From Collybia mongolica (Eukaryota; Basidiomycota; Agaricomycetes; Agaricales; Clitocybaceae), in assembly GCA_013420905.1 (NCBI GenBank), contig JAAXNY010000001.1, positions 4,898,001 to 4,962,000 on the forward strand: DNA of 64,000 nt, given 5' to 3'. Position numbers and translations under genes: made by a program. Positions 12,301-54,582 of the stretch are shown piece by piece. Position 1 is the stretch's first letter; the number at the start of each line of letters is the position of its first letter. The notes under the pieces were generated by a model. That model was not told the origin of the DNA, made no database searches, and saw only the letters and a program-made list of their open reading frames with translations.

Positions 12301-12589
12301 GGTGTAGCAGGAGTTGGCTCAGGAATAGGCTGCATGAGAAAAGTGCCATCAGCAGTGCATGGTCAAGCTATGAAACACAGTAAGCATACATGTAGCACTG
12401 CTCAAAACACAAGACTATACCATTGAGATGTTCATGATAGATTCGTGTATAGTGCTTCAATTCTTCGGGAACTGGGACAGTGAGGTGTTGCGCTCTTTTG
12501 TGGCGAGTACGGCCACTCAGTGACTTGCACTTCAGACCACATATTTCACATTCATAAACCCTCGAATATGTAGGATTAGTGGCAGGCAT
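9381..12589 (-). CDS. Plavaka-family transposase
   Basis: Predicted to cut and paste the surrounding element. The first exon (start 12589) encodes a C2H2 finger, C-x2-C-x12-H-x4-H, in CEICGLKC...HKRAQH. Then follow, in the usual family order: [14 protein letters not shown] and [15 protein letters not shown] (12000-12300), [20 protein letters not shown] (about 11680-11740), [14 protein letters not shown] (about 11500), [12 protein letters not shown] (about 11330), [18 protein letters not shown] (about 10970), [19 protein letters not shown] (about 10400), and [21 protein letters not shown] to [10 protein letters not shown] at the stop. One clear 50-bp intron is 11779-11828; several others are needed to join the frames. 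I see no disabling change. Family assignment is by recognised sequence; the junction after the zinc-finger exon (about 12336-12415) is unresolved. Confidence 0.88.
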
Positions 12590-27999: not shown

Positions 28000-29480
28000 G
28001 GGGCCCGAGAACAAAGGGCCTCGAACCTCACGTTCGCAGCAAATGAGAGGAGCAGCCCCTGAATGCGATGTTCGGGGAGCTTGATTTGAGGTAGGGGTGT
28101 CCAATGAGGGGAGAGCACCCCAAACGCGATGTTCGGGGCCATAGTGTATGGCAGAGGCGGCGGGTGAGAGGAGAGTACCTAAATGCCATGGCCCTGAAGT
28201 TCAGGGCCTTAGTTCATGGCGGGGGCGGCAGAGGAGAGGTGAGGGCCCCAAATGCGATGTTCGGGGCCTTCGTTTGCGGCGGGTCCGATGAGGCCAGAGA
28301 ACCAAAGAAGTGATGTTTGGGGCCGTGAGTTGTGGCGAGGGCGGCGGGCGAGAGGAGAGGCCCCGAATGCAAAGTCCGGGGCCTTGGTTTGTGGCGGGGG
28401 CGTCCGGTATGAGCAGGGAGCCCCGAACGTCCAGTTCGGGGCCTTCGTTTGTGGTGAGGACGTCCAATGAGGCCAGAGAACCCCGGGGCACGATGTTCGG
28501 GGCCGTGGGTTGTGGCGAGGGCGGCGGGCGAGAGGAGAGGCCCCGAACGCAAAGTCCGGGGCCTTGGTTTGTGGCGGGGGCGTCCGGTATGAGCAGGGAG
28601 CCCCAAACGTCCAGTTCGGGGCCTTCGTTTGTGGTGAGGACGTCCGATGAGGCCAGAGAACCCCGGGAGCAATGTTCGGGGCCGTGGGTTGTGGCGAGGG
28701 TGGCGGGCGAGAGGAGAGGCCCCGAATGCAAAGTCCGGGGCCTTGGTTTGTAGCGGGGGCGTCTGGTATGAGCAGGGAGCCCCGAACGTCGAGTTCATGG
28801 CCTTGGTTTGTGGCAAAGTCGTCCGATGAGGCCAGAGAACCCCGGGAGTGATGTTCGGGGCCGTGAGTTGTGGCAAGGGCGGCGGGCGAGAGGAGAGGCC
28901 CCGAATGCAAAGACCGGGGCCTTCGTTTGTGGCGAGGGCGTCCGATGAAGCCAGAGAACTCCAGGAGCGATGTTTGGGGCCATGGGTTGTGACGAGGGCG
29001 GCGGGCGAGAGGAGAGGCCCCGAACGCAAAGTCCGGGGTTTTGGTTTGTAGCGGGGGCGTCCGGTATGAACAGGGAGCCCCGAACGTCGAGTTCGGGGCC
29101 TTCGTTTGTGGCGAGGGCATCCGATGAGGCCAGAGAACTCCGGGAGCGATGTTCGGGGCCGTGGATTGTGGCGAAGGCTGCGGGCGAGAGGAGAGGCCCC
29201 GAACAAGAAGTTCGAGGCTTGGTTTGTGGCGGGGGCGTCCGATGAGGCCAGAGGGTCCCGGAAGTGATGTGGGGGCCGTGGTTTGTGGCGAAGGCGGGGG
29301 TGGGGGCGAGAGGAGGGGGCCCCGAATCGTTCATGGTTGGAGCAGCAGGAGGTAAGAAAGGGCCCTAAACGCGAGGTTTGTGGCCTTGGTTTGTGGCGGG
29401 GGGGGTCCGGTGTGAGCAGAGGGTGCCGAACACGATGTTTGGGGCCATGGCTCGTGGTGACGGCAGGTGAGAAGAGAGTC
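28000..29480. repeat. GC-rich ~60-bp minisatellite with a three-monomer higher-order repeat
   Basis: About 24 head-to-tail monomers of 59-61 bp, each starting with a core like GGGGCCTTGGTTTGTGGCGG. From about 28319 to 29220 three monomer types alternate: C (GTGGGTTGTGGCGAGGGCGG... AGAGGAGAGGCCCCGAA), A (GCGTCCGGTATGAGCAGGGAG) and B (GTCCGATGAGGCCAGAGAAC), giving a ~180-bp super-unit repeated about five times. At about 28917 a B monomer follows C directly, so one A unit is missing. The two flanks of the array are more divergent. Long open frames on both strands arise because the super-unit length is close to a multiple of three. Confidence 0.9.
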
Positions 29481-34472: not shown

Positions 34473-35688
34473 TGAAAGGGGGCTCCTGGGCTATAAGTGC
34501 GCTGATGCTATGAAATGTAATCCCTTACACACACACACCAAACTTAACAATCAACACACGAACAGTAGGAATCGCCTGTTTTGAGTTCGGGTTCAAGTGC
34601 TTAGAAGCACTAAGCTTTGAATAGTACTAGCCAAAGCCCTTTTCAATGATCTCCCAACGGGTTTGATTCAGACAAAAGCTTCAACACAGGTTTATAAACC
34701 TGCTAGGTATATTTATAATATTTCTCGATCCAATAGACTGGGTACCAAGTGTACGTTCAATTATTAATGATCCCAAGCGGATCTATAAGTCCAAGCGACT
34801 TATCAAACAATACAGTGCCAAGTGCACTAAGGCCAAGTGCCTAGTAATTCCAACGGACAATACGGTGCTAAGTTCCAAGTGAACTAAGTTTCTTTAATTC
34901 TGTGGTTCTCCAATCAATTCCAATCAAGACACGTTGAAGCAATCTGATCCTTAATTCGGGCACGCAATAGTGTTTTAACAAATGTGATTTGTATACTCTA
35001 TAGTCGCGCGAAGTGGGGGCAAGATTCCTTGCCTTAGCGCTACTCATCTACAGTCTATTTATAATGTACAAACTAAATATCATATGGAATTGTAAATTTT
35101 ACACGGAACCGCGCTCCCGCGCGCCAAGAATCTGTATTCAATACTGACGCGTCTACTACAACTTGGCGCGCGCGTCATGCGTGCCAATTATGCCGTTTAC
35201 TGGTTACTTATCAAATATTGAAAGAGCTGGCTAAACTCTTATCAAGTCGCGACCGCGCGCTCCGTTATTTAAAACAGCGCGGCACTGTCATTTACTCCTC
35301 CTGATTGTCCCGGTCGCTATTCACGGGGTCCCGTCGCTTCCAGTAGTTAACACCAAGTACCCCTGACAAGGATCGGGTTGTGCAAGTCCCGAATTTACAA
35401 TTACTTCTCCTATTAATGATGATCCCCGGACTAATGATATCATACTACAACGGTTACTTATGAACTAAGACACCGAGGTTGTAACCGGGCATGGTGAATA
35501 GGACTAATAATAGACCGTACTCATAGTCCTCTGTACTGATAGTGTATTATCCATTAGACCAGTTCACTCTGATTAGCCGTCTCGGAGCTCGACTCTAATC
35601 CTTTATTACCGCTTACTTGGTTATTAGAAATGACACTAATAGCCTTACTTGTTGACTTTATAAGTGCAAACAATTTCGGGCCCTATCA
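34473..35688 (-). repeat. 3' LTR of copy B (in element orientation)
   Basis: 1216 bp with TG...CA ends on the plus strand (TGAAAGGGGG to GGCCCTATCA). It matches 46851-48066 except for three substitutions noted by eye: G/A at about 34867, C/T at about 35173 and A/G at about 35350. A TATA box in element orientation is at 35056-35063. Confidence 0.96.
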
Positions 35689-35700
35689 TCTCCCCCATAC
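35689..35700 (-). promoter_or_regulatory. Polypurine tract of copy B
   Basis: On the minus strand GTATGGGGGAGA directly abuts the 3' LTR. This is the expected place and composition for the primer of plus-strand DNA synthesis. The same tract precedes the LTR in copy A (2774-2785). Confidence 0.75.
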
Positions 35701-36139
35701 CACAAATGTAGACTGTCCTCAGTCTCTCTTTGCCGGCAGGTTGGTCCAATACTTCGGGTCTGCACGCGTCTAATCTTTCAGTACAATGTTACAACGGTTC
35801 CGCTTTTAGACAGGTAGGCGCGCGATGTTGGGATCGAGCCCAGAGGTTTACTTCCCATCAGGATCGTGACAGCTATATACGTCTCCTGAGAGAGTACTTG
35901 ACATTCGGACATCGCTTTACAGATATTTCAGTCATCTGGACATTTTTCTCGTTATGTTTCTGACACTTCAGCAAGAGATCGGTACTCCTGTTTGTTCTTT
36001 AGAGCTTCGCAATGCAGGGTTGTGCGTTTTAAAAAGCTCGCGTCCTTGCTAAGTTTTAGACAATTTGGACTTTATAGCCCATTTCTAAATCTCTTTGCTA
36101 TCTGCATCGCTCAAACGCCCCGACTCTTTTCAAACAGAA

Positions 36140-38085
36140 ATGTCTTCCACTTCCACTTCCGCCATGGCTCGTGCTCTGCGCTCGCCTTCCGCGCTGTCCC
36201 TCTCGCTTTCTGCCGCGATTCTGCCGACTGAGGGCCGTTCCCCCACCATGGTCTATGTGGACCAGCCGATCCCTTCCTTCTCGGACCTCCTCGAAGATGC
36301 CGAGGGCGACGTCTTCGTCGCTATGGAGCAAGGGTGGATTATCATGGCCGAGGAGCTCGCGCCCCGTATGGACCACCAAGGTCCCCTTGACCTTGATGAC
36401 TTGATCGACTTTGTCGATCACTGCTCCATGCTCATCGTACGCCCATCTTTTACTTGTTAACTCCTTTTACTTATTTACTGGTCTCAGGATGCCATCACTG
36501 GCGTGGTCCGTGGCGCGCGTTTCTCGCTGCCATATCCGGCTATCCTCCTCCTGCGCGCGCTTCACCTTCAAGTGATGCGCATCCCAGTTGACGTGCGCGA
36601 TGCTTCGTGGTCGTCCTGGCGTACGGTCATATCGACTGACCTGGGCGCCAACTCCATTCTTCTGGTAAATAACTTGTTTACTTCTTTACTCTGCCTCCCT
36701 TTGTCAAGCTGACTACCTTTTTCTTTTAGGGCCAGGCTCCCACAGTGGAGCAAGTCCTTGACCAGGTGGGGTCGCGCTTCGAGCGCGACAATGGTGATAG
36801 TATCTTTCGGGATACTTTCCTCGTCCCGCCTCGCATGGTTGGCGCGCCGCGCCGTTACCATCAGTACCAGGACAATTGGTCCGCCGCGCCCTTGCCGGCG
36901 CGCTCCCCGGTCTTGGTACCCGCGGTTCGTTTATTACTGCCTTTTTATTACTTTTCTTCGGTAGTTGACTTATTTTAATAGCCCCTCAAGCGGAAGCGTA
37001 ATGCTGGGTCCAAGGGAAAAGGCCGTGCGGTTCCCCAGGTATATCCTTTACTTTACGAGTTTCACATTATTGCTGACTTGATTTCACAATTCTAGTCCGA
37101 CATGTCGCGCGCCCAGGGGACTGGCAGTGCTTCCGCGCTGCGTCCCTCGGAAGCAGGCCCGGTATGTCTCTTTCTGAAGTCATTTACGTTCACTCATCTT
37201 TATCTCCTTAGTCCTCTGGGCAGCCGCCGGTGAAGGTTGAAGTCCCTGAGCTTCAGCTCTTCGATGATGAGGTCGCATGCCAGTTGGCTCAAGAGGGGTT
37301 CGCGGAGTTGTTGCCTCCCGCGGCCCCTTCTCCTCGTCAGTCGCGTAAGACCACCCGCTCTAGGGATAGGGCTCAGGCGACACACCGTAAGCACGCGCTG
37401 GTTCCCAACCGGGAGCTGACGCCGCTCCAGTCCCCTATTACCTCCCTGCTGGCTGACCTTGCGCCGCGGCGCTCTTCCGTATGTTTATTACTACTTTATT
37501 TCTTGTTACTGATCATTTTTACTAGGTGGGCTATCCTTGCACGATGTGCGCCACCCGCGGCGACATTGAGTGCACCTTCAACGGTTGGGGTAAACCGTGC
37601 ATGGAATGCGCCACCGCCAAGAAGGGGAAGTGCAGCTTCAGCCTCACTCCCCAGAAGCGCGCTAGGCTCCGTGAGGATCTGGGGCCCATGCTTGGTGCGG
37701 GCATTTCTAGTAAGCCATCTTCTTTCCGTCTTTTTGTTTACTACTGATTTTACTTATTCTACTAGCGGTTGCTGAAGCCTATGCTCAGCTCGGCGACGCG
37801 GACACCCTTGCCGCGGAGGTCATTCAGGCCGCTAACCGCGCGCTTGAAATGCGCGACTCCTTGTTGGCGCGCATTGTTGGCACCATTGGTAGGTTGTACG
37901 AGGAGGAAGGCCTGGAGGGCCTTCAAAACCTCTTGCTGACTACGCCAGCCACGGAGAGCGCCCTCCTCTTCTACGCGGACTTCCAGAATCTCCCTTGGCC
38001 GCCCTTGGAAGAAGAAGTAGAGGTTGATGACAGTTCTTCGTCGTCAAGATCTTCTGCGTCCGTGCCTGACAGCGAGGAGGAGTAG
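36140..38085 (+). CDS. Antisense accessory gene 1: Zn2Cys6-like protein, 520 aa, 8 exons
   Basis: Lies inside the retrotransposon but on the strand opposite gag-pol. Exons 36140-36436, 36488-36664, 36730-36924, 36982-37038, 37096-37161, 37212-37478, 37526-37709 and 37766-38085 sum to exactly 521 codons, with GT-AG introns of 47-65 bp. Visible features: acidic/hydrophobic N-terminus (residues 35-100), basic PLKRKRNAGSKGKGR at about 224-238 (nuclear-targeting-like), SRKTTRSRDRAQATHRKH near 300, then C358, C361, C369, C378, C381 and C389 in the pattern C-x2-C-x7-C-x8-C-x2-C-x7-C, close to the fungal binuclear zinc cluster. The tail is Ser/Glu-rich. The same gene is intact in copy A. It may be a DNA-binding regulator of the element; that is inference. 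It converges on pol. Confidence 0.82.
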
Positions 38086-38672
38086 CCGCGCCGCGCCCCC
38101 CCCCCACCTACGTTTTCTTTCTATATGTGTTTTCCCGGGCCCTAGTGCCCTTACATATCACTTATTCCCCCGCCTTTCGTTGGGCTTCAATTCTTTAATT
38201 GAAGTCCAACACATGTCTTATATACAGTCCCTCGGACTATAAACAATGCTATTGATTTGGCTGTGGTTCTATTGTCTTCATAAGAAAGCTTCCGCCCTTG
38301 CCCCGGCTACTTAAGTTATAAATAGTACGGTTTAATTCTGGTGCAATTCTCTCGATCATTAAAAACCGTGGCGCGATCACTGACTTTTTATAGACAATCT
38401 ATTTCAATCCTTGTAACCTTGGTAGGTTTTTCCAATTCGATTTTGCTTATACCCATCTCCCCCTCAACACTGATAACAACTGTCCCAGTTGTCATGCGGA
38501 CACTGCCGCGCTCCACATGAATTTTTACGGAGCTCCTTTTTTTTTTAATTGGGCCCAGCATTTCAATTAGGCACGCGTCTCGGACCTGTTCAGTTGAAAT
38601 GTATAGATTTTTCTGGGGATAGAACGCGCGCAACGAATGAGAGACTGGGTAGCACTTCTCTAGTCGTAGAGG

Positions 38673-38680
38673 TATAAAAA
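38673..38680 (+). promoter_or_regulatory. TATA box of antisense accessory gene 2
   Basis: TATAAAAA about 100 bp before the ATG at 38779, with a pyrimidine-rich leader between. It suggests that gene 2 has its own promoter within the element and is not merely the 3' part of a gene 1 transcript. Confidence 0.5.
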
Positions 38681-38778
38681 GGGCACTGGCTGTGCTTTTT
38701 GTCCCAAGACATCGCCCGACTCTATTATACTCTCTTTACAACGTTCTGGTTCGAAGAATCAATTTCCTCTGCATCATT

Positions 38779-40156
38779 ATGACTAGCCCCCCCAACTATC
38801 AAGACATCGAGAACTTCAAGATGGTCCAAGCTCAGTGGCACACCTTTCAAGCTCGTTTATCGATGGACACCCTTGTTGAACAAAGGGTCAGCGTCCGGAA
38901 GTTAGGCGAAACCGCGGTACACTTTTTACCAATTAACTTATATACGCCGTTATCGTAACAACTTTTACAATTTACAGCTACTCCTGACTGAGTCCAAAAT
39001 GGTTTTGACGGAGCGGTCCTGGCAGAATGTTATCTTTGGCGTCCGTAAAGCATTCCAGGGACTACAACATGTATACCCCGAGTTACTTCAAGAGCCCGTC
39101 TACCGCAACATTGTGACTCTTACTGCCGCTATTCACCGTCACCGTGAAAAGGTCCGCACCGAGCACCTGTCTCAAACCGCGGTGCGTGCTTTTTACCTTA
39201 TCTTGCACTGTACTGTTCTTAAACCATGGTTTTCTGGTACTAGGTCCCTGCTACTGGTGGTGATGCGGATAGTCCCGCTATTCCAGGCGAGGTCATTGCT
39301 GGCAGTGAATATGACGGTGACATTGAAATGTCTGGTACTGACTCGGTATGTTTCTTTTTAGCTACCGCGCTGTCAGTGCGCGACATACTCAATGGCGTCT
39401 CTTCTTTACTCAAGAATATGGTCATTGATTCCGGCGCTACGGCTAGCGCTACTGTCTCTGGACCAGTGACTAGTCGTCTCCTTAGTGAAGGACCAATCAC
39501 CCGTAGTCGCAAGGAGAAGGAGAACATTAAGGTTCCCCGTGTCAAAAGGACTAAGGCTGAAAAGGCTGCCATCAAGGTACCCATTCTTGTTTTTGCTCTG
39601 TCTATTACTTTGTTTCTCATTCCTACAGGACGGTAAGCGTTCCGAGCTCAACCGCGGCAGTACTCTTCGTCCCAAAAAGCGTACGAGGCAGGACACCCCG
39701 GATGAAGATCCAAAGGCATCTGCTGAGGGTACGTTTTCTAATAATAGATGGTTCTAATTTTATACTGACTGTGTATCAGATACTCGTGTCTTTATTGACT
39801 TCCGTCCCTCCAAGGAGCACGATGTAGTCTTAGCGCGGGCGCGCTTGATTGCTGACGCGGGCGATCCCTTGTCACACACCAAGCAAGCCCTCGGTAGGAT
39901 GCTTTTAAACTACCGCGCTGAGTTGGAGGAGATCAGTCATACAGTGTCCTTCTTATTGAAGCGTCGTGACGCCACTATGGACGAGGTTACTCGCCTCAAC
40001 GGTCTAATGAACGAGGCCGCTCTGGAGGGAGGCTCTGACGAGGCTGCCACTGCGAGCGCTACCGAAGTCCATGACCAGGATGACAATGATAAAGAGGAGG
40101 TAGCTCCGGCTGACGTGCCCTTGCCCGAGGTTGAAGACGACTTCATATCTGCTTGA
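38779..40156 (+). CDS. Antisense accessory gene 2: unknown 360-aa protein, 6 exons
   Basis: Second gene antisense to gag-pol. Exons 38779-38916, 38978-39181, 39244-39345, 39415-39576, 39629-39728 and 39780-40156 sum to exactly 361 codons. I recognise no domain. The N-terminal part (NYQDIENFKMVQAQWHTFQA, MVLTERSWQNVIFGVRKAFQ) looks helical. The middle is low-complexity with basic blocks TRSRKEKENIKVPRVKRTKAE (about residues 190-210) and LRPKKRTRQD that could target the nucleus. The C-terminal third has a likely coiled coil (LGRMLLNYRAELEEISHTVS) and an acidic end. Intron 39346-39414 is 69 bp, a multiple of three, so it could be retained without breaking the frame. The stop lies 146 bp from the pol stop, facing it. 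The homologous region of copy A is outside the window. Confidence 0.75.
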
Positions 40157-40302
40157 GGGTAGTCCAATTAACTTCCTCCTTAGTTATGGTGTCCCTCCCC
40201 ACGCTCCTTTGTATTACTGTCTTTACTCGGTTTAACACTGTCCTTACTACTTAGCTTCGTTGCTTACACTGTCTTTACTGCTTCTGTTTTCATACTGATT
40301 TA

Positions 40303-43300
40303 TCACTTATGCAACTTCCGGTGTGACATAGTAGTTTGTGGTAGCGCCGGCGCTATCCCCTCTTCAGTGTTTTCACTAGAGCTTGACTCTGAATCGGACT
40401 GATCCAATTGGACTCTGTCAAAGGTATAGTCACGCTCCTTATAAACTTGTCTATTAGCGGGATCTTTCGATTCCACTAAAGCATTTAATGTTTCGCTAGA
40501 GATGTCTATTAGATCTTGCAGATTATCCGGCAGTTCAATTGTACTCCTAGCAAAATAGGGAATAACCCTAAACGCCCCCACTTTATGTTGCCACACCGAT
40601 CCATCCATTTCACAAACAATATAGGCTCCCCCGCGGTTTCGTCTCAGGACTATCATTGGTCCCAGGTACCGTGGCTTCAGCTTTTTATCGAGCGAACTTT
40701 CGACCTCGGTATTTCTAACTAGTACTAAACTTCCTGGTTTGAAATCATAGTCTCTGATGGTCGCGCTGTGATCCTTCTCATACTGTAATAGTCTCCTTCG
40801 TTTTTCTATATTGATACGTTTCCTCATATCGGCCACATGCTGGACGTGCTTAGCTAGAGCCTGCGCTCTAAACCCAATGAGTTCCTCTGTAGTCAATATT
40901 TTTCCTGGTAACTTTACTAACCAAGTGGCTTCAATGATATCTAACGGTAAGGTTGGGTGCGCGCCCGTAATCATAAAATAGGGGGAGCAACCCGTCCCTC
41001 TCCGTATAGTAATCCTGTCAGCCCACATTACATGGTGGAAGAAGTAGTACCACTTCTTTACATCACCACCTGTAGCTTTGAAGACAGCTTGACGCACATC
41101 CCAATGTGCGCGCTCGGCGATCCCATTTCCTTTGGAATTGTATGGTGATATACTTATTCCTGTAATACCATACTTGGATTCCAGCCACGCTTTGGCTGCG
41201 ACAAAGGCAGGACCATTATCCGTTACAATTTCCGTTAGAGAACCCCATCTACAAATTACTTCTTCGAACAGCCACCTTCCCAAGGTCTTGCCATCCTCAG
41301 ATTTGAGGGGCGCGCCTTCCATCCATGAAGACAGCGCACATCTTCCTTGGACAATGTATTTATAGCCATTAGACGATGGGCTCATATACATGGTGTCCGC
41401 ATGCAATACTTGGAATATAGACGGCGTGTGGGTTATGACAGGAGGGATTCTCAACAAAGTTAAGAGCCTTGTCTGACAGATGTGACATGACTTCACATAC
41501 CATGATACATCGCGTTCCATTTCTGGCCACCAAAATCTTTTATCTATTAAAGATTTTGTTGCATAGAAACCCCTATGTCCAACAGAATCGTGAGACGCCT
41601 TCATCATATATGTTCGGTGATTTTTATCAACAACAAGCTGGTGCGCGCTATCGATATTTTTCCTATACATCCTGCCTTCTGGATCCAAAAAGAAATTAGA
41701 CGCCTGCCTTGCAAACTTTAGGTAGGCGCGATCTGTCATTCCTTTTGGTCTCTTTTGTGGTCTTTTTAACCATTCTTTTATTAAAGGTAGGTTTTTATCC
41801 TGTTCCAGTGCCGTAGGTGTTCGTTTAGACTCATCATATACTTCCCTTACATTAGGGTCATATTTAAACTTTTCATCAGGTATGACAGTAGTATTTACAA
41901 GTTGCTTTAGATAAGCTTCTCTTTGAATACCGAACCGTCCTAAACCTAAGTGCTGTTTTACTTCTCCAATAAATGCCGCTTCACCAGCCCAGGCATTGTT
42001 TACTTCCACTTCAAAATCAGAGATTTCCTTTGCAAGTTGGAATAAATATCCGCCGCGCGTGTCGATCTCCTCTTTAAAGTCTGACAGTTCCAAAGGGTCA
42101 TCCAATCCTTCCGTTGGGTTGATAAACCTTAAAGGACCTGAGGGTTCGTCGTAACCATCGTCTGGGTCCGGGTAGACAGGATCCTCTAGCCGCGCGTCGC
42201 GTCTTGACAGACCGTCTGGGCCAAAGCCTTTACCAGCTTTATGAACCAAAGTAAAGTGGAACATAAGTATCCTATCAATCCACCTATTTACCGTTGCATT
42301 AGGTCCTAAACTTGGGTTTGATAACATCCCCTTAATGTACTTTGCATCCGTTTCCACTACCAAATTTCGTACTCCAATAAACCAATAATAACATGCCATT
42401 AGAACTCTCATTAATCCGAATAGCTCTCGTTTGGGTTGTGAGAAGCGCGCTTCGCGCTCATTCAGAGTTATCGAGTCAAATCTAGCATAGTGCTTTCTTC
42501 CAGGTATATCAGGGTCTTCCTGGTAGATATAGTAGCCTACGGCTTTCCATGACGTATCTACTGACAGTACTACTGGCGTATTCCAGGTGTAATTAATTGG
42601 ACGGAGCGCGGGGCTATTTTTAAGTGCGTCTAATAATAGCTGCTGCGCTTCTTCTTGCTCAGGCCCCCATATCCAAGGTTCACTACTCCTAGTTAACTTT
42701 TGAATTGGTTGACCTATACGGGCGAAGTCTTTAATGAAATTCCTGCATACACCAATAGTTCCCATGTAAGCGCGTACTTCACTGACATCTTTGCATGGTC
42801 CCCATCTTTCAACTACACCGATTCTATCTGTAGTAGGTTTTCGTCCTTCATAGGTACATCTATGTCCTACCACTAGAATTTCACTTGCGCATAACATAGA
42901 CTTATATCCTGAAAATGTTCCTCCAGAATACTTCATTCTCTGTACGACGCGATTTACATTTTGCATATGTTCCCAGAAGAAGCGCCTAACACCTGGAGCA
43001 CCAGGTAGCTCTTCTTCTGTTCCGTCCGGTAGTTCGTAGCGCGTTGCTGGACCGCGCACGGGTACATCATCAATATAGGGTATTGTGACATGTGGTACCT
43101 CATCCTGTAGGATGTACGTGACATCGTCATGAAATATTGGAACAGAATTCGTCCATCCCATAGGGAGTGTTACTAATCTCAGCGCGCCAAATGGTGTTTG
43201 GAACGTGGTTAGATCGCGCGAGGTTTCTGCTAAAGGCCTCTCATCGTATCCTACATATAGATCCATCATTCCGCCACAAGCGCGCCCTGCGAAGTGTTCT

Positions 43301-44877
43301 GCTAGTTCTTCGGTAGCGGGTGGTAGACCCGAGTGCGCTATTGTGACTGCATTCAGTGGTTCTAGACTATGTACAATTCTAAGCTTCTTTCCTGGGCCTT
43401 TCTTTAATACGGTAAACCATCTAGACCTGTATGATGAATTGGATCTCTCATAGACTCCTGCATCAATTTTTGTCTTGATGATTTTACAAACATCTTCATA
43501 GATTCCTGGTGGGATTCTAATGTTCCTCTCTGTCCACGGCGTATGTGGGACTACTGGTATTTCGACGGGAGGAAAATATTCCTTCTTAAAACTACCGCGC
43601 TCACTATCATTCCAAGCAAAACCATCATTATGTTTGCACATAAAGTCGTGGATTATATCCATCTCTTTAGGTTTTAAGAAGCTTTCTTCTTCGTGTACTC
43701 TTTGGAATTCCGCGCGCCTTTCCTCAGTGTACCTCCCAGTTGGTTTAAACGGAGGTGGGTTAGGCGTTAGAACTGGTAGGGCCGCTAAAGGGTCGCCCTT
43801 TATATCTCTGATAATTCTAAATTTATCAGGCAGGTCCGCCAGTGTTGGTTTTGTTTTCAAATGTACTGGTTTATACTTCTTTCCTACTAGCTGATCCATG
43901 GTCTCAATATTACACTTTTCACTTGTTGCCGTTCCAAGACCGCGCTCATTTGTGCCAATTTGCCACTGCTTTAATTTACTTAAAGCTTTATTGATCATGG
44001 GCTGTTCTTGAGCGTATGTCAGCGGTCTAGTGGGTGTGCTTGCTGGGTCCCTACTGTTCTGCTCGTAGTTTATTACTGGTCCATCGCGCTCATCTACGGA
44101 AGCCAAGTACGTGGCTAGTAATTCGCGTTCAGGTACTGTACTATTCATGTTTACATCACTTCTAGACAAAAAGACATCTCTAAGTTCTTTGTGACCAAAG
44201 TCCCCGCATATTATAGATCCCTTAGGTATTCCGCCGCGGTCATACTCTGAGATGAAGAAAGACTGAAATGGGATTGACTCTACTGGTAGCGCGTCATGCC
44301 GTAAGTAGTTATCATCAAGTTCCCAGTCCCCTCCAAAGGGTAAGACGTCTTCCTCATCTATTCCGTTTATTTGCAAGTTAGCGTCCCTTTGGGTAAGGGA
44401 CTTACGTCTGGCAGTTACAATATTCTTTATTCCATCTCTAATGGTTTTTGACGAGCCCATTAACTCTCCCGTGGTCAATGTGATAGGGTTGTCTAACACT
44501 TTAGCAATTATATCGCCACCTTTTAATTTTACTTCTATCGGGGACTTAGTTTCATAAGTCGGACCGCGCTTAGTGTTAAAATTAGGTAACGGATCAACTG
44601 GTTCAGGGTTGCGTTCCGTTCTCCGGGGTATGTAGGGTACCACGGGCACATCGATGTAGGGTAATTCTTTTCGTACTGGAGACTTTACTGATGGTTCAGC
44701 AAATTTTACTTTCCTTTTACTAGGAGACGGCGCTACCAGCTCCTCTCCGCTACTATCCTGACTACTCTCTGAATCGTTACTTTCTTGACGACTATTTCTA
44801 TTTTTACTTCGGTCCTCTGGCTGTCTCTTGGAACGCGACCTAGTCGTAGGTCTAGCGTGTTCCTTAGCCTCCTTCAT
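40303..44877 (-). CDS. pol: Pol polyprotein: reverse transcriptase, RNase H, integrase (1524 aa)
   Basis: Uninterrupted polyprotein that copies and integrates the element. The N-terminal ~350 residues are Lys/Arg/Ser-rich with [19 protein letters not shown] near residue 115. The reverse transcriptase follows, with [10 protein letters not shown], a motif-A-like [24 protein letters not shown] and the catalytic YIDD at 601-604. RNase H is around 760-870 ([26 protein letters not shown]). The integrase has an HHCC zinc finger near 1080-1135 (HRTY...HDSVGH...CHIC) and catalytic D (LHADTMYM), D (TDNGPAF) and E (GIAERAHWD) with 34 residues between the last two. A GPY/F-like [12 protein letters not shown] comes later; no chromodomain. 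I could not find the D-S/T-G motif of an aspartic protease in either pol or gag. The ATG lies five bases after the gag stop, in the -1 frame. Confidence 0.95.
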
Positions 44878-44882
44878 CGGAC

Positions 44883-46394
44883 CTAATTGAAACCCGACTC
44901 TTTAACCTTGTTTTGGTTATTGAGTTCTGCTACCTGCCCTAATAAAGTACTCATTTGTGCTTGTAAGGCTACTATGTCAGGGTTCGGCGCGCTCTTTGCC
45001 ATAGGATTATAGTTATTATTTATATATTCCTGTTTCTGCATCTGAGGCGCTACTGGCAGCGCGGTTTGCGCGCTCTGTTGTCCTAACATTTGTTGCGCTT
45101 GAAATTGTGCCATTTGTGCCATTATGGCTTTCAAGGTTCCAATGTCGTTACTATTGTCTACTGCACTATGTGACTGCATAACGGACAATACTCCTGGGGC
45201 GGGTCCTTCCGTGACATCTCCGTAATAAAGGGCCGCTACCTTCTTTGAATGGAAGTGTTCCACTTTATCTTTCAAGGATACCGTTTCTGGTTCCCTTGGA
45301 ATATATGATCCGTCTGGTAAGCATACTCCTCCATTTGCATTGGTTTTTATTTTCCCTTCCTCAAAATGTTTCTGTTTCTCGGGACAGGCCATTATGAAGT
45401 GTCCGGGTGTAAAACAGTAGTGACATTTATACGCATTTGGTCTTTGCGGTTGTCCTTCTTTAGGCTTTCCGTACTGATTCTGATACTGATGCTGCTGGGG
45501 TGCGCTATTCGTGGCATGGTTCTGAACAGTTGCTTGTTGAAGCGCTTTCATTACATCCTCGAATCCACTCCTCGTATTCTTCTCATTTACTTGGAGACGG
45601 TCTAACAAATTAACTATTTGTTGTTTTATTTCATCCATCTCTACTTTGATTTTGGGCGCTGCTGTTGCTGTTACGGACGTTATAAACGATCTATTTGTGT
45701 CTGGAATATTCATGTTGGCTACACCTTCAGAAATGCTGATTGCAGTTGCTATAACTTCCTCCAGATCGTACTGATCCCCTTTTCGTCGCGCGAGCGCGGC
45801 GGCTTCGGCAATAGTATTAGGATCTGCTCGGTTGTTTGTAGCAACGGCTTGTCCTGCCTGTGTAGCATTAGACTGATTATTCCCTAGCAGGGTTAGCCTT
45901 CCTTGTACTTGGGATCTGAAGACTTCGTCTAGACATCCCAAGAACTTGGTAACTAATTCACGGTTAGAGATAATTGGTGGCCTAACTCCCAAGAGTTTAA
46001 TAGATTCTGCTTTGAATTCACGCTTCAGCTTTTTCAGCGCGGCCTCATCGGTTACTCCAATACGTGGGTTGGCGCGACACACTGCCTCTAACTTGGCTAC
46101 TGATCCTCCTACTTGATCGAGTGCTTCCGGATAACTAGAGATCAACTCTGTCTTGAAATCCGTCCAAGTGCCTGTCTTATAGTGGTCTAATGCCCTCCAC
46201 TCATTCTCTGATTGTAGGTCTGCGTATTTTCCCAACATTAACTTCTTTTCTTCATCATTTGTAATGTTACACTCCTTCCATAGGACCTCCATTCGCTCCA
46301 GAAACCGGATTAAACCCGTGGGCTCTTTTCCTTTGAATACTGGTGCATCACGGACGCCTGGTTGGGGCATATATTTACGAGGGGGTTCAGTCAT
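44883..46394 (-). CDS. gag: Gag polyprotein with CCHC zinc knuckle (503 aa from the first ATG)
   Basis: Capsid/nucleocapsid precursor that packages the element's RNA. A helical capsid-like region includes [20 protein letters not shown] and [18 protein letters not shown], and a CCHC knuckle [14 protein letters not shown] (C-x2-C-x4-H-x4-C) lies near residue 330. The C-terminus is Gln/Asn-rich. The frame is open without a stop for about 116 more codons upstream (to 46742) but has no ATG there; this extension is Pro/Arg/Ser-rich (PLARQVATKTRQTKN, PPPRRARTRGSSQP), so the true start may be a non-AUG codon or lie in an upstream exon. The start at 46394 is the first ATG. Confidence 0.9.
44889..44895 (-). 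promoter_or_regulatory. Candidate -1 ribosomal frameshift site at the gag-pol junction
   Basis: In the gag frame the codons are TCG GGT TTC AAT TAG, so G GGT TTC fits the X XXY YYZ slippery rule. After slipping back one base the frame reads GGG TTT CAA TTA GGT CCG ATG, which is the pol frame with no stop. The heptamer ends three bases before the gag TAG. No stimulatory downstream structure was worked out. Reinitiation at the pol ATG, five bases past the stop, is the alternative. Confidence 0.6.
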
Positions 46395-46833
46395 GATTAC
46401 TGAACGGTTCTGAGTAGCTAACGAGTTCGGGTTTGCTACTGGGTTTACTACGGACGATCTTCCGCGCGCTACTGGTCTACTAGTAGTCGATATGTTTCCT
46501 AAGGGCTCTGGAGTTCTAAATACTTGCCTTGGTCCTGAAGATCCAAAGGCTGGTTGTGAAGATCCTCGTGTGCGCGCTCGCCTAGGAGGTGGTAACGACT
46601 CTGTTACTCCAGCGTTTTGCGAATTTTTAGTCTGCCGCGTTTTTGTAGCTACTTGTCTTGCAAGTGGCTGATTAGTTAGTCTGTTTGACGAGCTGGCTTG
46701 TGGGCGTGGCTCTTGAGACAGATTGACTAAACTTTCTCCGCTCTACTTCAATTTGTAGACGACGTTACTCGTCTTGGTATAATATTTTTCAAAGAAAGAT
46801 GCTCTCTTTAGACTATTCAAAAACTCTGAACCC

Positions 46834-46848
46834 TCGCGGTGGGCTCCA
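46834..46848 (-). promoter_or_regulatory. Primer-binding site of copy B
   Basis: Two bases inside the 5' LTR the minus strand reads TGGAGCCCACCGCGA. It begins with TGG, as expected for pairing to a tRNA 3'-CCA end. The tRNA species was not identified. Confidence 0.65.
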
Positions 46849-46850
46849 GA

Positions 46851-48066
46851 TGAAAGGGGGCTCCTGGGCTATAAGTGCGCTGATGCTATGAAATGTAATC
46901 CCTTACACACACACACCAAACTTAACAATCAACACACGAACAGTAGGAATCGCCTGTTTTGAGTTCGGGTTCAAGTGCTTAGAAGCACTAAGCTTTGAAT
47001 AGTACTAGCCAAAGCCCTTTTCAATGATCTCCCAACGGGTTTGATTCAGACAAAAGCTTCAACACAGGTTTATAAACCTGCTAGGTATATTTATAATATT
47101 TCTCGATCCAATAGACTGGGTACCAAGTGTACGTTCAATTATTAATGATCCCAAGCGGATCTATAAGTCCAAGCGACTTATCAAACAATACAGTGCCAAG
47201 TGCACTAAGGCCAAGTGCCTAGTAATTCCAACGGACAATACGGTACTAAGTTCCAAGTGAACTAAGTTTCTTTAATTCTGTGGTTCTCCAATCAATTCCA
47301 ATCAAGACACGTTGAAGCAATCTGATCCTTAATTCGGGCACGCAATAGTGTTTTAACAAATGTGATTTGTATACTCTATAGTCGCGCGAAGTGGGGGCAA
47401 GATTCCTTGCCTTAGCGCTACTCATCTACAGTCTATTTATAATGTACAAACTAAATATCATATGGAATTGTAAATTTTACACGGAACCGCGCTCCCGCGC
47501 GCCAAGAATCTGTATTCAATACTGACGCGTCTACTACAACTTGGCGCGCGTGTCATGCGTGCCAATTATGCCGTTTACTGGTTACTTATCAAATATTGAA
47601 AGAGCTGGCTAAACTCTTATCAAGTCGCGACCGCGCGCTCCGTTATTTAAAACAGCGCGGCACTGTCATTTACTCCTCCTGATTGTCCCGGTCGCTATTC
47701 ACGGGGTCCCGTCGCTTCCGGTAGTTAACACCAAGTACCCCTGACAAGGATCGGGTTGTGCAAGTCCCGAATTTACAATTACTTCTCCTATTAATGATGA
47801 TCCCCGGACTAATGATATCATACTACAACGGTTACTTATGAACTAAGACACCGAGGTTGTAACCGGGCATGGTGAATAGGACTAATAATAGACCGTACTC
47901 ATAGTCCTCTGTACTGATAGTGTATTATCCATTAGACCAGTTCACTCTGATTAGCCGTCTCGGAGCTCGACTCTAATCCTTTATTACCGCTTACTTGGTT
48001 ATTAGAAATGACACTAATAGCCTTACTTGTTGACTTTATAAGTGCAAACAATTTCGGGCCCTATCA
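46851..48066 (-). repeat. 5' LTR of copy B (in element orientation)
   Basis: 1216 bp, TG...CA on the plus strand, nearly identical to 34473-35688. On the minus strand a TATAAATA box lies at 47434-47441 and is kept in all three LTRs of the window, so U3 probably occupies the plus-strand right part and transcription of gag-pol starts shortly after it. Confidence 0.96.
47434..47441 (-). promoter_or_regulatory. LTR TATA box for gag-pol
   Basis: TATAAATA on the minus strand, about 590 bp before the LTR ends and gag's leader begins. The identical box is present at 35056-35063 and, in the opposite orientation, at 3411-3418. Confidence 0.55.
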
Positions 48067-48730: not shown

Positions 48731-51700
48731 ATGTTTAGCCCTCTTCAGATTTTGACGGTTGCAGGCAGCTTTCTTGCTTCTGCCGATGCTTCGTATTTCC
48801 AACCAAACTCGACTGGCATCAAACTACAGAATGGTTTTGAGCGTGTGTACATACAAGTAGGGCCATTTATCTCCCTGCGAGTGGTTTAGTCTCAAATCGG
48901 TATTAATAGCCCTTTGGTAACCACGGAATACGTGTTCGAGCAAGCTTGTTGAGAGATCCGACCGGAGCTGAGTTATCTGCGTTCCTTGACCCTCCTATAG
49001 AAGGTCCAGGCGGGCATCAAGGCCTTGCGCACGACATCACACTCCCGTTTCGCGGCAGTGCTTCTTTGAGGAATGGGAATATCGTGGCTAATGTCTCTAA
49101 TGGCATGCTGTCATTTTTACGTGTAGAACCAAACGGCACCACCACGCTCTTAACTTCGGAGTATTCTGACACCAAGGCCCTCCCTTCGAGGTTCTACACG
49201 CAAGATTTTCGAGCATCGACCTTCTCCGCCCAGTTTTCATTCAGCTCTACTCCTGATGAGCAGTTCTACGGAACCGGCCAGCAAGCGTGCTGTAATGACA
49301 ATTCGGTTAATAAGAAAGGCCAAGTCGTGGATCTCATTAACTATAACTCACATGTGACGCTACCTGTCTACATGTCGAACAAAGTAGTCATCAATCGACT
49401 AAATCTTGGTCCCCTTAATTTACTCTTCGACAGGGATACCTTCAGTTTTTCAACATGCCCAGTCAAGGCAGAATAGGTATGTTTGTTCGCCTTTCTATCC
49501 ATTCTCGGTCACGTTCGTCGATCGGAAACGATAGAATTCGGCCCTCTTCGTACGCGTTTTGAGACCAGTGAGGCTTCGGTCGTCGATTACTACATGTGCG
49601 CCCACCTTTCTCACTACAGGTCCTACATTCACAATCAATACACAGAACCACAGCAACGCCCGGTGATTACGATGCTTTACAGTAACAATTTACGGGAGTT
49701 ACAGGTAGGCCCGTATCGACTTCTTTGAAGTGCCCATCTAAACCTTGTTTGAAGGCCGCCAACCGACTCCGCCCGATTTTATATTGGGTTATCAGCAATC
49801 AAAATTGCGATATTTTAACCAATCCCAAGTCCTGGACGTTGCGCAACGATTTCATGACGAAAATGTCAACGTCTCACTGATAGTCGTAGGCAAGTTGCTC
49901 AAGATCTGTGTATAGCATTGATGCAAGCCGTTCGTATTTAGATTTCTTTGCTTGGAAATTCCAGGGAGACTGGTGAGTTACGAATATCAGTCTCAAACCG
50001 ACTTCGCTGACCCAGTAGACGGCTATAAGGTCGTTTGACCCAGAGTTCTTCCCAGATCCTGCAGGCATGGCTGCAGAAGTCAAACGTCTTACTGGTGCTG
50101 AAATGATGGTTTCCCTATGGCCTAGCGTCGAAGATTTATCTGTCAATTATCTCACATTGCAAGAAAACGGTTTATTAGCAACGACGAGAGATGGTCCAGG
50201 GGTACAAGATTCTTTCTCTGGAGTCTACACTCGCCTCGGTCAGATTATCAAATTTTCAAAGACTTATTTTTGATGGTCTCTCAATGCAGTGGACTCGACA
50301 AACCCCGCTGCTCGGGAATTCATCTGTGTGTCGTCTCATTCTGAGGAATACTGAGGAACTTACGATTTCGAGCTGATAGGGAAGCGCCTGAACGACAGTT
50401 ACTTTTCAAAAGGGATACACAACTTCTGGATCGATCAAGCCGATGGTCAGTGGAGAGAAAGGACACTGTTAATCTGTCGCTAATCGGCCTGTGAATATGT
50501 AGGAGGTACGCTTGGGGAACCTTTTGAGAACAGTTGGGCTATGTCTTTTCTTTCACCGGTCTCGTCACTCAAGCTCCGAAACAGACGGACAAGCAATAAC
50601 CTCTATCCCTTTTGCGCGACCGTTTACCCAATACTTCGTCGGGACCCAGGAGGCCGCTGGGAAAATGTATCCCTGGCTGCACCAGCAAGCCATCGAGGAG
50701 GGACTTCGTAATCTTACAGGGGCGTCAGGAGCCACGAGTTCATGCCAGTTCATGTCATTGACACGGAGCACCTTCGTTGGCGGACAACGCTTCTGTTCGT
50801 ATCTATGGAGCGGTGACACTGAATCGAGGTTCGATGTGCTCTTGCAACAAATTACGGCTGGCGTATCCGTCGCTGCTTCGGGTATTTCCTCATGGACATT
50901 AGATATTGGTGGGTTCGTTGGCCTTGACATCGATAGTGAACTTGTTGGTAGAGAAAACCTGTTGCAATGGGCACTTGAGCTAAATTTTCCTGGTAGGGAC
51001 GAGAATTGTTTGTGCGCTGGTTTGCCATGGGGGTATTTCTTCCATATGTGAGTTGAACGTATTCGGTGATTCTGTACTCTTAACCAAATTTCATTTAGAC
51101 GCGTGTTCACGGGTGAGTGATAATCTGGTGCTTCTATGAAGTGCAGGTGTTTATGGTCTTCTAGAACAAGGAGTTGTAACATCCCAAGCCCCACTTCCCC
51201 TGCGTTTGCCAACCCCTGTCCCAATGAGGTGAGTGACTCGTTTCATGAGGATTACGTACCCTGATCGATCCTGGGGAATCCAGCCTTGGGCGTATGGGGC
51301 CGACAACTTTGAAATCATCAAGCAGGTAATAATATTGTCTAGTTTCCCGGTTTCTTATTCACACATATCTTTGTGAAGTATATCGCCCTTCGGTATCAGC
51401 TAATTCCATATGTCAAGAAGCTTTTCCAGATGTTGCACGAAACTGGAAATACCATAATGCGGCCGTTGTATTATGATTTCTCCATTTCTGACCCTTTCGT
51501 CGCGAGTGCGACCGGAGCCAACGACCCATCGGTTGTCCATCAATACATGTTTGGTAAATAAACATTTTGCCTTTGGTGTTGCGTCGGCTGAACCGGGTTT
51601 GACTCCTTTCAGGTCCTCGTCTGCTCATTGCTCCAGTTGGAGAGTCTGGCGTCACAACAAAGAGGGTCTACCTCCCTCTACTTCCAGACTCTCTTCGCAC

Positions 51701-51904
51701 TCAGAAGTTTACATGGACTCACTGGTAAGAAACAATATCTCCAGCTTTCAGCATCGATACTGGGTTGTTTAAATTTGGACTCCTAGGTGGTCTGAGGTTG
51801 ATTTCGGTGCAGGAGGGAAATTCGTGAATGTGAGCGCGAAGCTCGACGAAATTCCAGTGTTCTACCTCGGAGACAAAGACGACATATTGAGTGGTAATAT
51901 CTGA
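48731..51904 (+). pseudogene. Secreted GH31 alpha-glycosidase-like gene, copy 1, with one stop codon
   Basis: Family 31 glycoside hydrolases cleave alpha-glucosides or alpha-xylosides. ATG 48731 starts a signal peptide (LQILTVAGSFLASADA). Exons follow the same plan as copy 2: GIKLQNGFERVYIQ, FGNHGIRVRASLLRDP, EQFYGTGQQACC, QPTPPDFILGYQQSKLRYF, AEVKRLTGAEMMVSLWPS, IHNFWIDQADG (nucleophile Asp by family analogy), CSYLWSGDTESRFD (acid/base Asp), WTLDIGGF, and IPVFYLGDKDDILSGNI at the end. In the exon ending near 49704 the frame reads GAT GCT TTA CAG TAA CAA (TAA at 49683-49685) where copy 2 has AGG; flanking residues match, so it is a nonsense codon before the catalytic residues. An intron at 49890 uses a GC donor, one near 50541 a weak GTTGGG, and the donor after DIDSE (near 50939) looks lost. 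Otherwise conserved. Confidence 0.82.
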
Positions 51905-52172
51905 GAGCGCATCATTGATATTTATGGAACAGCAAAGCCTCAAATATATGAATGATGGATGTTAACGATAATATAAGCGATTCGCAGAATGCTTCTTGAA
52001 TGATATTGGGTTTGTACATATAAATCTAAGTTGCGCTGAATACGCTCTATGCATGTTATATAGAACCATTAAAGTCTATGATGTTGTTGACGGACCTATA
52101 GAAAGCCGCTAAGGGTATGCATCTAAGGATAAAATGAGGTTTCTCACGAAGTGTTCAAGGTGTAGTTATAAT
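51905..52172. other. Downstream of GH31 copy 1, nothing recognised
   Basis: AT-richer 3' flank. It probably holds the polyadenylation region; no gene or repeat was seen. Confidence 0.35.
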
Positions 52173-52442
52173 TCAAGGATGAATCCGCCGACGACGACGT
52201 CGAGATCCAGCGCGACGAGGTAGAGAGGGGGGTGGCGCCCCTTCGGAAAAGCTTTCTCCTGTTGAAGCATCAGACGGGAGCCTGCTGGATGACTTTCGGT
52301 GAAAGGAAGGCCAGCTTCGCTTCACATTCGGGATTGGAAGTTGGTGTGCCAGGGATTCCGCCGTGGAGCCAGTCAAGGTGGCGTGAACACCTAGAGAAAG
52401 AGTACTCGCAATCGCAATATATGACCAGGTGACAATTTGCAT
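52173..52442 (-). CDS. Possible small secreted protein, 89 aa
   Basis: Single open frame with a signal-peptide-like start (MQIVTWSYIAIASTLSLGVHA) followed by a short hydrophilic chain, PNVKRSWPSFHRKSSSRLPS, and ending in an arginine run and IHP. There are no cysteines and no recognised family. It lies between the GH31 copy and the NOSIP-like gene on the opposite strand. It could be a small secreted protein or a chance frame. Confidence 0.3.
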   Translation of the reverse strand: MQIVTWSYIAIASTLSLGVHATLTGSTAESLAHQLPIPNVKRSWPSFHRKSSSRLPSDASTGESFSEGAPPPSLPRRAGSRRRRRRIHP

Positions 52443-53001
52443 CGTTGGAAAGTCGTGAGAAGTAGATCCAATATCTGTGAGGTCTATATTGAAAGACTAT
52501 GAATGACAGTTTGGCCCAGTAAAAGAAGCAATCTTACACGTCGATGTAGTTCTGGTGTGAGGCTTGTGGAGGTGTGAGGGGCCGTCGGGCTAAAAGTGGC
52601 TTCTAAGGGTGTTTATCCGTCTTAATCCAGAAAACAAAAAGGAGTCGGTTCCGTCTAAGGGCGTCTAAGATTATGAAAGTCGAGCAACTTAGGTTGTGGG
52701 TTGAGAGATGGGGGATTCTGATGATGATGCTGCAAAGATCATCCGCAGTTTATCTACCCTTGGGTTTTCGGCCTCAAGGCAAGCCTCATTCCGGGGCACA
52801 AAGCATTCGCCTAATTTTAAGGTCCTCATGGCAAAGGTTCGGATTTATCTCATAAGATGGGCGTTGGGGCGTGCGGTGTGTGGCTATGTTGAAGTTGTGT
52901 TGAAGCGTGGTTTACCAAAATTACTCTTGGCGCCAAATCCCTTTTCACACTATCACGATTCACCTTGCACTACCATTTCGTCCACAACTGAATCATAGGC
53001 C

Positions 53002-54312
53002 ATGACGAAACATAGCAAGAACAACACAGCGTCGTCCATATTCAGTTATGCAGAGTATAAGAAATTGGATTATGGAACGAAGAGGGTGCGTGTTCATCGG
53101 TCACAGTATTTTCATGTTATTAATAAGTAACTTCAGCAACGTCTAGGAAATGAATCTATGCGTAAATTTGACGCGTGTGCGCTATGTTTGAATAGTGCTC
53201 GAGAACCGCTGGCCTGCAACGAAGGCCATCTATTTTGCAAAGAGTGTGTTTACACTGACCTCTGTGAGCGCGAAGATTAAAATCATCTGACGACACTAAC
53301 CTTTGTAGTGTCCCAGAAGAAAGATATACAACGTCAGAAGTCCAAGTTGGAAGCGATGAAGCAGGAGGTCGAAGAGGAGAAGAATAGAGCAAAAGACGCT
53401 GCACGTGAAAGGGTGTTATTGGAGTTTGAGAAGGGTCAGCTTGGTCTTGCTGGTACGCCCGGTGCCTCTGGGACGAAATCTGGAGGTGATGCGGATGAGC
53501 GTAAGTCTGTCCAGCTTCAGATTGGTTCACGTTACTAAAAGGGAAGAAACAGCCCGGGGTGTAAAGCGAAAATTTGCATTTGATTCATCAACCGTTGAGA
53601 CCCTTGCACAGGAGGCTGAAGAGTCGGCATTGCGCGAAATTGAACGAGAACAGGCCGAAGCTCTTCGTAGTAAACTTCCAGATTTCTGGTTGCCTTCCCT
53701 AACACCAACGTATTCGTCCACCGGGCCGCCTCAGTCGCTATTGGATGTAAAGGTTCAGACGACGTGTCGTGGTGGTGACCCTCCTCATCCTATTGCGTAT
53801 GCATCAGATTAACTCGAGAACACTGACAACATACTAACATCGTGCTCTAGGCTCAAGCATCTGATACCTGTCAAATTTTCGTATTACAGTCATGATTCTT
53901 CGCGGTCTGCAGAATCGACTCCTGTGGAAGGTAGTGGGGGGACCCGGAAGGAAGAGCCGGAACCTATGTGTCCGTCATGTAAAAAGAGGCTCTCGAATAG
54001 CATTCTCATGTTCGGTACGCTCTTCTATATCAGACCCAGTCTTTCCTTCGCCCTAATAGTTCTCTTGCAGTGATGAAACCATGTGCACATGTAACATGCA
54101 AGACCTGTACTGATTCGCTTGTTCGGCCGGCGAAACAGTGTGTGGTATGTGATACGCAGTTAAAGGAAAAAGATATTGTAGAGCTAAAGAGAGAAGGTAA
54201 GTCTCGATTTCTGATCCCACCCATTCTTTGCTAACACATTATCGTAGGAACGGGTTTCGCGGGTGGTGGGTTAGCAGAAACTTCCAAGGCTGGTATCGCA
54301 TTCCAAGGTTAA
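53002..54312 (+). CDS. NOSIP-like RING/U-box protein
   Basis: Resembles eukaryotic nitric oxide synthase-interacting protein, a nuclear E3-ligase-type protein linked to splicing complexes. In order: MTKHSKNNTASSIFSYAEYKKL (the NOSIP start), a first finger DACALCLNSAREPLACNEGHLFCKEC, the helical linker SQKKDIQRQKSKLEAMKQEV, LPDFWLPSLTPTYS (matches the conserved FWIPSLTP), LKHLIPVKFSYY, then a second finger CPSCKKRLSN...KPCAHVTCKTC...CVVC and the characteristic ending IVELKREGTGFAGGG. Exons join through short introns, for example 53270-53308 region (GTGAGC...TTTGTAG) and those near 53500, 53810-53850, 54015-54070 and 54198-54247. No defects were seen. It is probably a single-copy host gene, lying between the two GH31 copies. 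Confidence 0.85.
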
Positions 54313-54582
54313 CGTTGTGCAATATTTACCAGCGGTGAAGGACCATGTATGCAGTAGGAAAACATCTTTGTTCGAATTTTGGATCGTGATACCGCCAGCT
54401 TCTTTCTTACGCGAGGTAATTAGCTTCGGATAAATCCTCTTCTTTCCTGCGTCACAAGGGGTTTGACTCGTGGTGGATCGCCAGAACACATACGAAAGGT
54501 TACGACGGGGCCAGCGGTCCGCCACCCCGTCAAAATGATACATAACCGCGTTCTGCGTTTATTGTCGTTGTGTGTGGGTACC

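Follow-up and report, generated by a model that had tools for sequence, protein, structure and literature searches.

A gypsy-type retrotransposon of Collybia mongolica with two multi-exon genes antisense to gag-pol

Retroelements normally lose introns on copying through RNA, which raises the question of how a mobile element could own intron-rich genes. The question arises at a gypsy-type retrotransposon in a 64,000-nucleotide (nt) stretch of the Collybia mongolica genome (contig JAAXNY010000001.1, positions 4,898,001 to 4,962,000; hereafter the window, meaning the whole stretch). Between its pol gene and its 3' long terminal repeat (LTR) the element carries two genes, with seven and five introns, on the strand opposite to gag-pol. 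Here we show that both gene models are coding and that their proteins are under selection, and we ask where else such genes are found and what they may do.

Gene models and element anatomy

The two antisense genes and their exons are as follows (window positions; aa, amino acids):

36140..38085, plus strand: antisense gene 1, 520 aa, 8 exons
36140-36436, 36488-36664, 36730-36924, 36982-37038, 37096-37161, 37212-37478, 37526-37709, 37766-38085, plus strand: exons of gene 1
38779..40156, plus strand: antisense gene 2, 360 aa, 6 exons
38779-38916, 38978-39181, 39244-39345, 39415-39576, 39629-39728, 39780-40156, plus strand: exons of gene 2

The seven GT-AG introns of gene 1 measure 47-65 nt and lie in phase 0 (introns 1-6) or phase 1 (intron 7); the five GT-AG introns of gene 2 measure 51-69 nt, again in phase 0 (introns 1-4) and phase 1 (intron 5). 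The exons sum to 1563 nt (521 codons) and 1083 nt (361 codons), both including the stop. A preliminary description of the locus, made by hand, had arrived at the same 521 and 361 codons and at seven plus five GT-AG introns with the frame kept throughout; splicing repeated by script gave exactly these figures. The anatomy of the element is likewise as claimed there, with LTRs, gag, pol and the two plus-strand models:

34473..48066, minus strand: whole gypsy-type LTR retrotransposon, 13594 bp, with a 4-bp ACGC repeat at both flanks
46851..48066, minus strand: 5' LTR, 1216 bp
34473..35688, minus strand: 3' LTR, 1216 bp
46831..46848, minus strand: candidate primer-binding site, starting TGG 2 nt inside the 5' LTR, assigned by sequence
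35689..35699, minus strand: candidate polypurine tract adjoining the 3' LTR, likewise assigned
44883..46394, minus strand: gag-like open reading frame (ORF), 503 aa, with a CCHC knuckle (E 6.5e-6, narrowly below the Pfam cut-off)
40303..44877, minus strand: pol ORF, 1524 aa, domain order reverse transcriptase (RT) - RNase H - integrase

The LTRs have TG...CA ends and differ by 3 mismatches over 1216 nt (a first comparison had found 300 nt identical). Pfam places the RNase H domain and the H2C2 integrase motif of pol above its cut-off, and the RT and integrase core below it. The element thus has the paired LTRs with a target-site repeat, the gag with a CCHC knuckle and the RT-RNase H-integrase order of pol that define Ty3/gypsy elements. 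Between pol and the 3' LTR, its own strand holds no frame longer than 135 codons from stop to stop.

Conservation of frames and splice sites

The preliminary description had proposed to judge the genes by whether frames and splice sites are kept in other copies of the family. They are, both in 30 close copies and in two distant ones. DNA searches found at least 40 places per gene at 93-100% identity; only 40 candidates of these searches were scored, so that the copy counts are lower bounds. Thirty copies were read (L009-L038, the window copy included). All seven introns of gene 1 are GT-AG in every one of them, and 27 copies hold the exon total at 1563 nt and have no stop other than the terminal one (exceptions L011, L023 and L028); introns 2, 3, 5 and 6 differ by 1, 2 or 6 nt among the copies. 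Exons 1-4 of gene 2 keep their length and are free of stops in 26/30 copies (exceptions L011, L027, L028 and L035), and its introns 1-3 are GT-AG in all except L035, in which gene 2 is cut. No intron-less copy is present among the 30. In the genome-wide protein search, exons 7 and 8 of gene 1 are always separate matches, never fused, among the matches listed, and no spliced copy was seen there.

Ratios of nonsynonymous to synonymous change (dN/dS) were calculated after sorting 25 of the 30 copies into three groups of 12, 4 and 9 (L011, L018, L023, L028 and L035 were excluded). Between groups, gene 1 has a ratio of 0.15-0.24 and exons 1-4 of gene 2 one of 0.26-0.41; within groups the values are 0.24-0.38 and 0.26-0.33, respectively. 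Synonymous sites change faster than introns in these close copies, mostly because of their CpG content. In a group of ten copies (L029-L038), gene 1 is about 96% identical to the window copy, yet exons 1-4 of gene 2 are 98.5-99.5% identical in nine; these copies look like recombination mosaics.

Four diverged loci were also fetched (L039, L040, L041 and L042). Two of them, L039 and L042 (84 and 89% DNA identity; 11-16% diverged), show the full order pol, gene 2, gene 1, LTR, and L040 holds pieces of gene 1 only. All 12 introns are still GT-AG in L039 and L042, with the length altered in 8 and 7 of the 12, respectively. Every exon length of gene 2 is kept in both, as are 6/8 exon lengths of gene 1 in L039 and 7/8 in L042; gene 1 is damaged in both loci and gene 2 of L042 has an early stop. 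Calculated on window-anchored columns with frame-shifted exons counted, dN/dS is 0.22-0.26, with an excess of third-position changes. Outside CpG, differences in L039 / L042 amount to 0.043 / 0.034 at second positions, 0.159 / 0.107 in introns and 0.207 / 0.140 at fourfold sites. The contrast is weaker at CpG sites, defined as CpG in either sequence, which raises their rates: 0.381 / 0.321, 0.577 / 0.433 and 0.529 / 0.454, in the same order. In the exons of these two loci, CpG second and fourfold sites differ at 32-53%, compared with 3-21% for non-CpG sites, a strong CpG decay that perhaps comes from cytosine methylation.

Genomic placement of the antisense genes

For the placement of the genes we used 105 of 112 protein-search rows for the last exon of gene 2 (7 short rows dropped), 114/117 for exon 1 of gene 1 and 106/141 for pol (second pieces and distant families dropped). 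Pol lies within 2.2 kb on the opposite strand at 94 of the 105 gene-2 matches, and same-strand pol within 3 kb at none of them. Gene 1, gene 2 and antisense pol follow one another in order at 75 loci (of the 105 gene-2 matches). Seen from pol, 94/106 matches have gene 2 in range, so the antisense gene is present in most copies; among the 12 that lack it, one is at a contig end and one barely beyond the distance limit. With their position between pol and the 3' LTR (window element, L039 and L042), their presence in most copies and their coding conservation, the genes show features that characterize antisense extra genes.

We considered the argument that the antisense genes are better protected from stops than pol and dropped it. 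Rows with stops number 0/114 for gene-1 exon 1, 3/105 for the gene-2 last exon and 22/106 for pol, and the pol piece is the more stop-prone by transitions: it offers 19 single transitions that give a stop (two at CpG) versus 5 and 2 in the two antisense exons. A second copy of the same family lies in the window itself, at 1-2340 on the minus strand, and runs off the left edge; gene-1 exons 1 and 8 and the pol piece match it at G000:C1:4900041, 4898386 and 4895257.

Antisense genes in other gypsy families

A search with the pol piece found relatives at 36-47% identity, which we group as follows:

L043, L044, L052-L055: family 2, pol 46-47% identical to the window pol
L045, L047-L051, L056: family 3, pol 38-48% identical to the window pol over long pieces, up to 60% over short ones
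L046: family 4, pol 34-36% identical to the window pol and 55% to family 2

The pols of families 2 and 3 are 77-81% identical to each other. The antisense gene of family 2 encodes 506 aa in three exons (introns of 102 and 51 nt). Three copies have it intact (L043, L053 and L054); in L052 it is broken by an early stop and in L044 by a frameshift, and in L055 it is either interrupted or truncated where the stretch ends. In family 3 the antisense gene encodes 677 aa, also in three exons (introns of 57 and 53 nt), and is found in L045, L047 and L056; no antisense gene was found in the stretch read around the family-3 pol copy L049. The N-termini of the two proteins align (hhalign E 2.4e-8), and both genes have two phase-0 introns at matching places, the second of them 5 residues before the first cysteine of a CX2CX7CX7-8CX2CX6C cluster. 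The family-3 exon search also matches family 4 (E 1.7e-9, 34%); the copy hit there is damaged and has five of the cysteines.

In families 2-4 all 14 paired gene copies are antisense to pol. The family-3 and family-2 gene searches gave 8 matches each, 14 of them antisense beside pol; of the other two, one is a short additional piece at a copy of family 2, and one, at G000:C4:2252699-2253007, plus strand, matches the family-3 antisense protein weakly (26%, E 2.8e-4) and possibly represents a fifth family.

Gene 1 is likely kin to the family-2 and family-3 genes, a link that rests on motif, place and intron and not on a significant score: as in those families, a phase-0 intron stands just before its own six-cysteine cluster, here by 4 residues. 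Gene 1 and gene 2 share a phase-1 last intron and an acidic-tail exon, and we also considered them as duplicates; with the profile comparison given below, we do not claim this.

Protein features and candidate promoters

The following features of the two genes bear on their possible function:

37538..37633, plus strand: six-cysteine cluster CX2CX7CX8CX2CX7C, gene 1 exon 7
39782..40153, plus strand: gene 2 last exon, predicted long helix (exon residues 29-82) followed by an acidic tail (single-sequence model, mean predicted local distance difference test score (pLDDT) 72.9)
38673..38681, plus strand: TATAAAAAG, TATA-like candidate promoter of gene 2, about 100 nt before its ATG
36027..36035, plus strand: TTTTAAAAA, weaker candidate promoter of gene 1, about 105 nt before its ATG

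In the six frames of the 64-kb window, the tight cysteine motif occurs only in gene 1 and in the second gene-1 copy (835-930), and it occurs in none of 40 shuffles; a looser form of the motif has one more occurrence, at 53176-53265. The tight motif is missing from L040, L042 and L046. Gene 1 resembles the fungal Zn2Cys6 factors in having six cysteines that form two CX2C pairs, with one further cysteine after each pair. It differs from them in a second spacing of 7, where 6 is usual, and the Pfam profile Zn_clus is not matched: the cysteine pieces of families 1, 2 and 3 have no Pfam match up to E 5. A PDB sequence search with the gene 1 protein returned nothing up to E 1, and no relatives were found in the viral contigs searched. 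Basic clusters are present in both proteins, and the long helix modelled for gene 2 is probably a coiled coil.

In L039 the TATAAAAAG box is unchanged, and in L042 it lacks one base; the TTTTAAAAA box is kept in L042 and has one change in L039. The 680-nt gap before gene 2 shows fewer non-CpG differences than the introns, 0.110 versus 0.159 in L039 and 0.075 versus 0.107 in L042. A scan for sigma-70 promoters and terminators was uninformative for a eukaryote.

Comparison with known systems

Plant gypsy elements (Grande with gene 23, RIRE2, and Retand with a TRP28 domain) carry an antisense gene between pol and the 3' LTR in most copies, for which a DNA-binding or nuclear product has been proposed, according to the accessible parts of PMC7264820 and PMC11963269; GENE23 of maize Grande offers a precedent for a nuclear antisense product (PMC7264820, same parts). 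The window element shares with them the antisense gene in that position in most copies, and differs in having two genes, 12 introns and a six-cysteine cluster, with no TRP28 or other Pfam domain. The word intron is absent from the main text of the Retand paper as far as available (PMC11963269). Transcription from its own promoter has been shown for Grande, whereas the window genes have a conserved TATA-like box and their promoters are candidates.

Among viruses, the antisense transcripts of human T-cell leukemia viruses (HTLV) are spliced, and for the HBZ and APH proteins a nuclear location and repression of sense transcription have been reported; HBZ, whose transcripts start in the 3' LTR, belongs to the bZIP proteins (PMC3185765, in the part accessible). 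The likeness to HBZ and APH consists in antisense orientation and splicing, the latter being predicted for the window element. HBZ has its first exon in the 3' LTR; the coding exons of the window genes all lie in the internal region, with the first coding exon of gene 1 beginning 451 nt outside the LTR, and the genes have candidate promoters of their own and no bZIP match.

In fungi, the element Boty of Botrytis cinerea carries an antisense gene, brtn, mentioned in the available portions of PMC7264820, PMC8365987 and PMC4227169. It is likewise a fungal element with an antisense extra gene, with one such gene named there, compared with two in the window element. The literature on antisense genes in LTR elements, taken from titles and abstract openings with few subscription papers, yielded no fungal element with two spliced antisense genes and no description of an antisense gene common to several fungal gypsy families. 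By word search, antisense is absent from the available main text of a survey of fungal LTR retrotransposons (PMC3248453) and from the available text of a screen of fungal transposable-element co-option (PMC10799480). Antisense extra genes as such are known from plants, as the preliminary description noted, and also, with brtn, from a fungal element; two many-intron ones in a fungal element we did not find described.

Interpretation and alternative explanations

We interpret the locus, with confidence that is evenly balanced, as a gypsy element with two selected multi-exon antisense genes, probably transcribed from promoters of their own, whose predicted role is to regulate the element from within the nucleus. 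Self-promoted genes with nuclear regulatory products are suggested by the basic and cysteine clusters, the gene 2 helix, and the conserved TATAAAAAG box and gap. Each gene would be transcribed from its own upstream promoter and the antisense mRNA spliced at the 12 predicted junctions; the cysteine cluster of gene 1 may bind zinc and DNA, the gene 2 product may act as a coiled-coil partner, and the nuclear products would control LTR transcription or another nuclear step. The introns would survive reverse transcription because the genomic RNA is the complementary strand, in which they read CT...AC and would stay unspliced; this argument from orientation, already made in the preliminary description, fits the copies read. 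Twelve introns kept in selected genes over dozens of copies show a way in which intron-rich genes can belong to a mobile element. Should the products indeed regulate the element, fungi would have antisense regulators corresponding to those of HTLV and plant elements.

Taking the other families into account, it is about as probable as not that fungal gypsy elements have inherited an ancient antisense regulatory gene, which would encode a spliced six-cysteine DNA-binding protein and predate the divergence of families whose pols are today 47% identical. The family of the window element would have added a second spliced antisense gene, and reverse orientation would have allowed intron-rich genes to pass through reverse transcription.

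Several observations weigh against our interpretation of the locus. Neither protein has a Pfam domain up to E 0.1, and thus no bZIP. The cysteine exon of gene 1 gives a poor structure model (mean pLDDT 58.5), and its PDB matches, the zinc-cluster factors PUT3 and AlcR, fall short of significance (E 3-7) and come from a badly aligned profile with the cysteines out of register. The profiles of gene 1 and of families 2-3 align with the clusters in register at a non-significant E of 0.15, for which reason the kinship is likely and not proved. Gene 2 has no relatives outside the window element's family among 112 genome matches, and profile comparison shows no kinship with gene 1 (E 0.14). Pooled dN/dS is 0.45 in family 2 (L043 and L052-L054) and 0.42 in family 3, figures that rest on few copies and changes and indicate weaker constraint; for L044 it is 0.31. 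As for placement, 11 of the 105 gene-2 matches have no pol in range, 9 of them with gene 1 and 2 with neither; gene 1 is nearby on the opposite strand at 3 of the 105; and in L041, a rearranged locus, gene 1 shares its strand with a gag piece, and neither pol nor gene 2 was found.

Among the alternatives, a role for the proteins at another step of the gag-pol cycle, such as bringing the integration complex into the nucleus or selecting the insertion site, is rather unlikely in our estimate. It has been suggested for plant antisense genes (PMC7264820, accessible part) and agrees with the basic clusters of both proteins; a DNA-binding-like cluster fits it as well as it fits transcriptional control, and the present data do not separate the two. 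We consider it improbable that two host genes were captured in reverse, or came in by a nested insertion, and now serve the host. The many introns and upstream TATA-like boxes do resemble those of ordinary host genes, and two of the 105 gene-2 matches (C1:5911925 and C13:625725) lack both pol and gene 1 within range. However, 94/105 stand beside antisense pol, 9 of the other 11 have gene 1, and 14 of the 16 family-2 and family-3 search matches are antisense beside pol; that other families have an antisense gene in this position speaks for an old trait and not for recent capture. A remote host origin of the antisense genes is still conceivable.

Nor do we favor, as a distinctly improbable alternative, a function of the antisense transcript itself, which would pair with the genomic RNA and tune silencing while its proteins were irrelevant. 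Such a role has been proposed for antisense transcripts of other elements (PMC7264820, accessible part), and the position of the genes is compatible with it. On the other hand, dN/dS is 0.15-0.41 within the family and stays at 0.22-0.26 with a third-position excess at greater divergence, and the frame is kept while the introns drift, which an RNA function would not need; the transcript could nonetheless act together with the proteins. The probability that both models are frames left open by chance in a decaying element is negligible. We found nothing in favor of this alternative, and we reject it on the retention of GT-AG sites and frame, on dN/dS and on the codon-position contrasts, all of which recur in other copies.

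Window neighbourhood

Other features of the window lie on both sides of the element; the Plavaka transposase listed first, like the short introns of the two genes, agrees with a basidiomycete origin of the DNA:

11289-12335, minus strand: Plavaka transposase (Pfam E 1.5e-47), of a type typical of basidiomycetes
20916-23651, plus strand: frame of 911 codons whose match to a tnp2 transposase is weak and under the cut-off
28201-29334, minus strand: long frames that overlap, apparently composed of an imperfect repeat
48946-55319, plus strand: frames resembling glycosyl hydrolase 31, apparently from two adjacent genes, the first about 0.9 kb from the 5' LTR of the element

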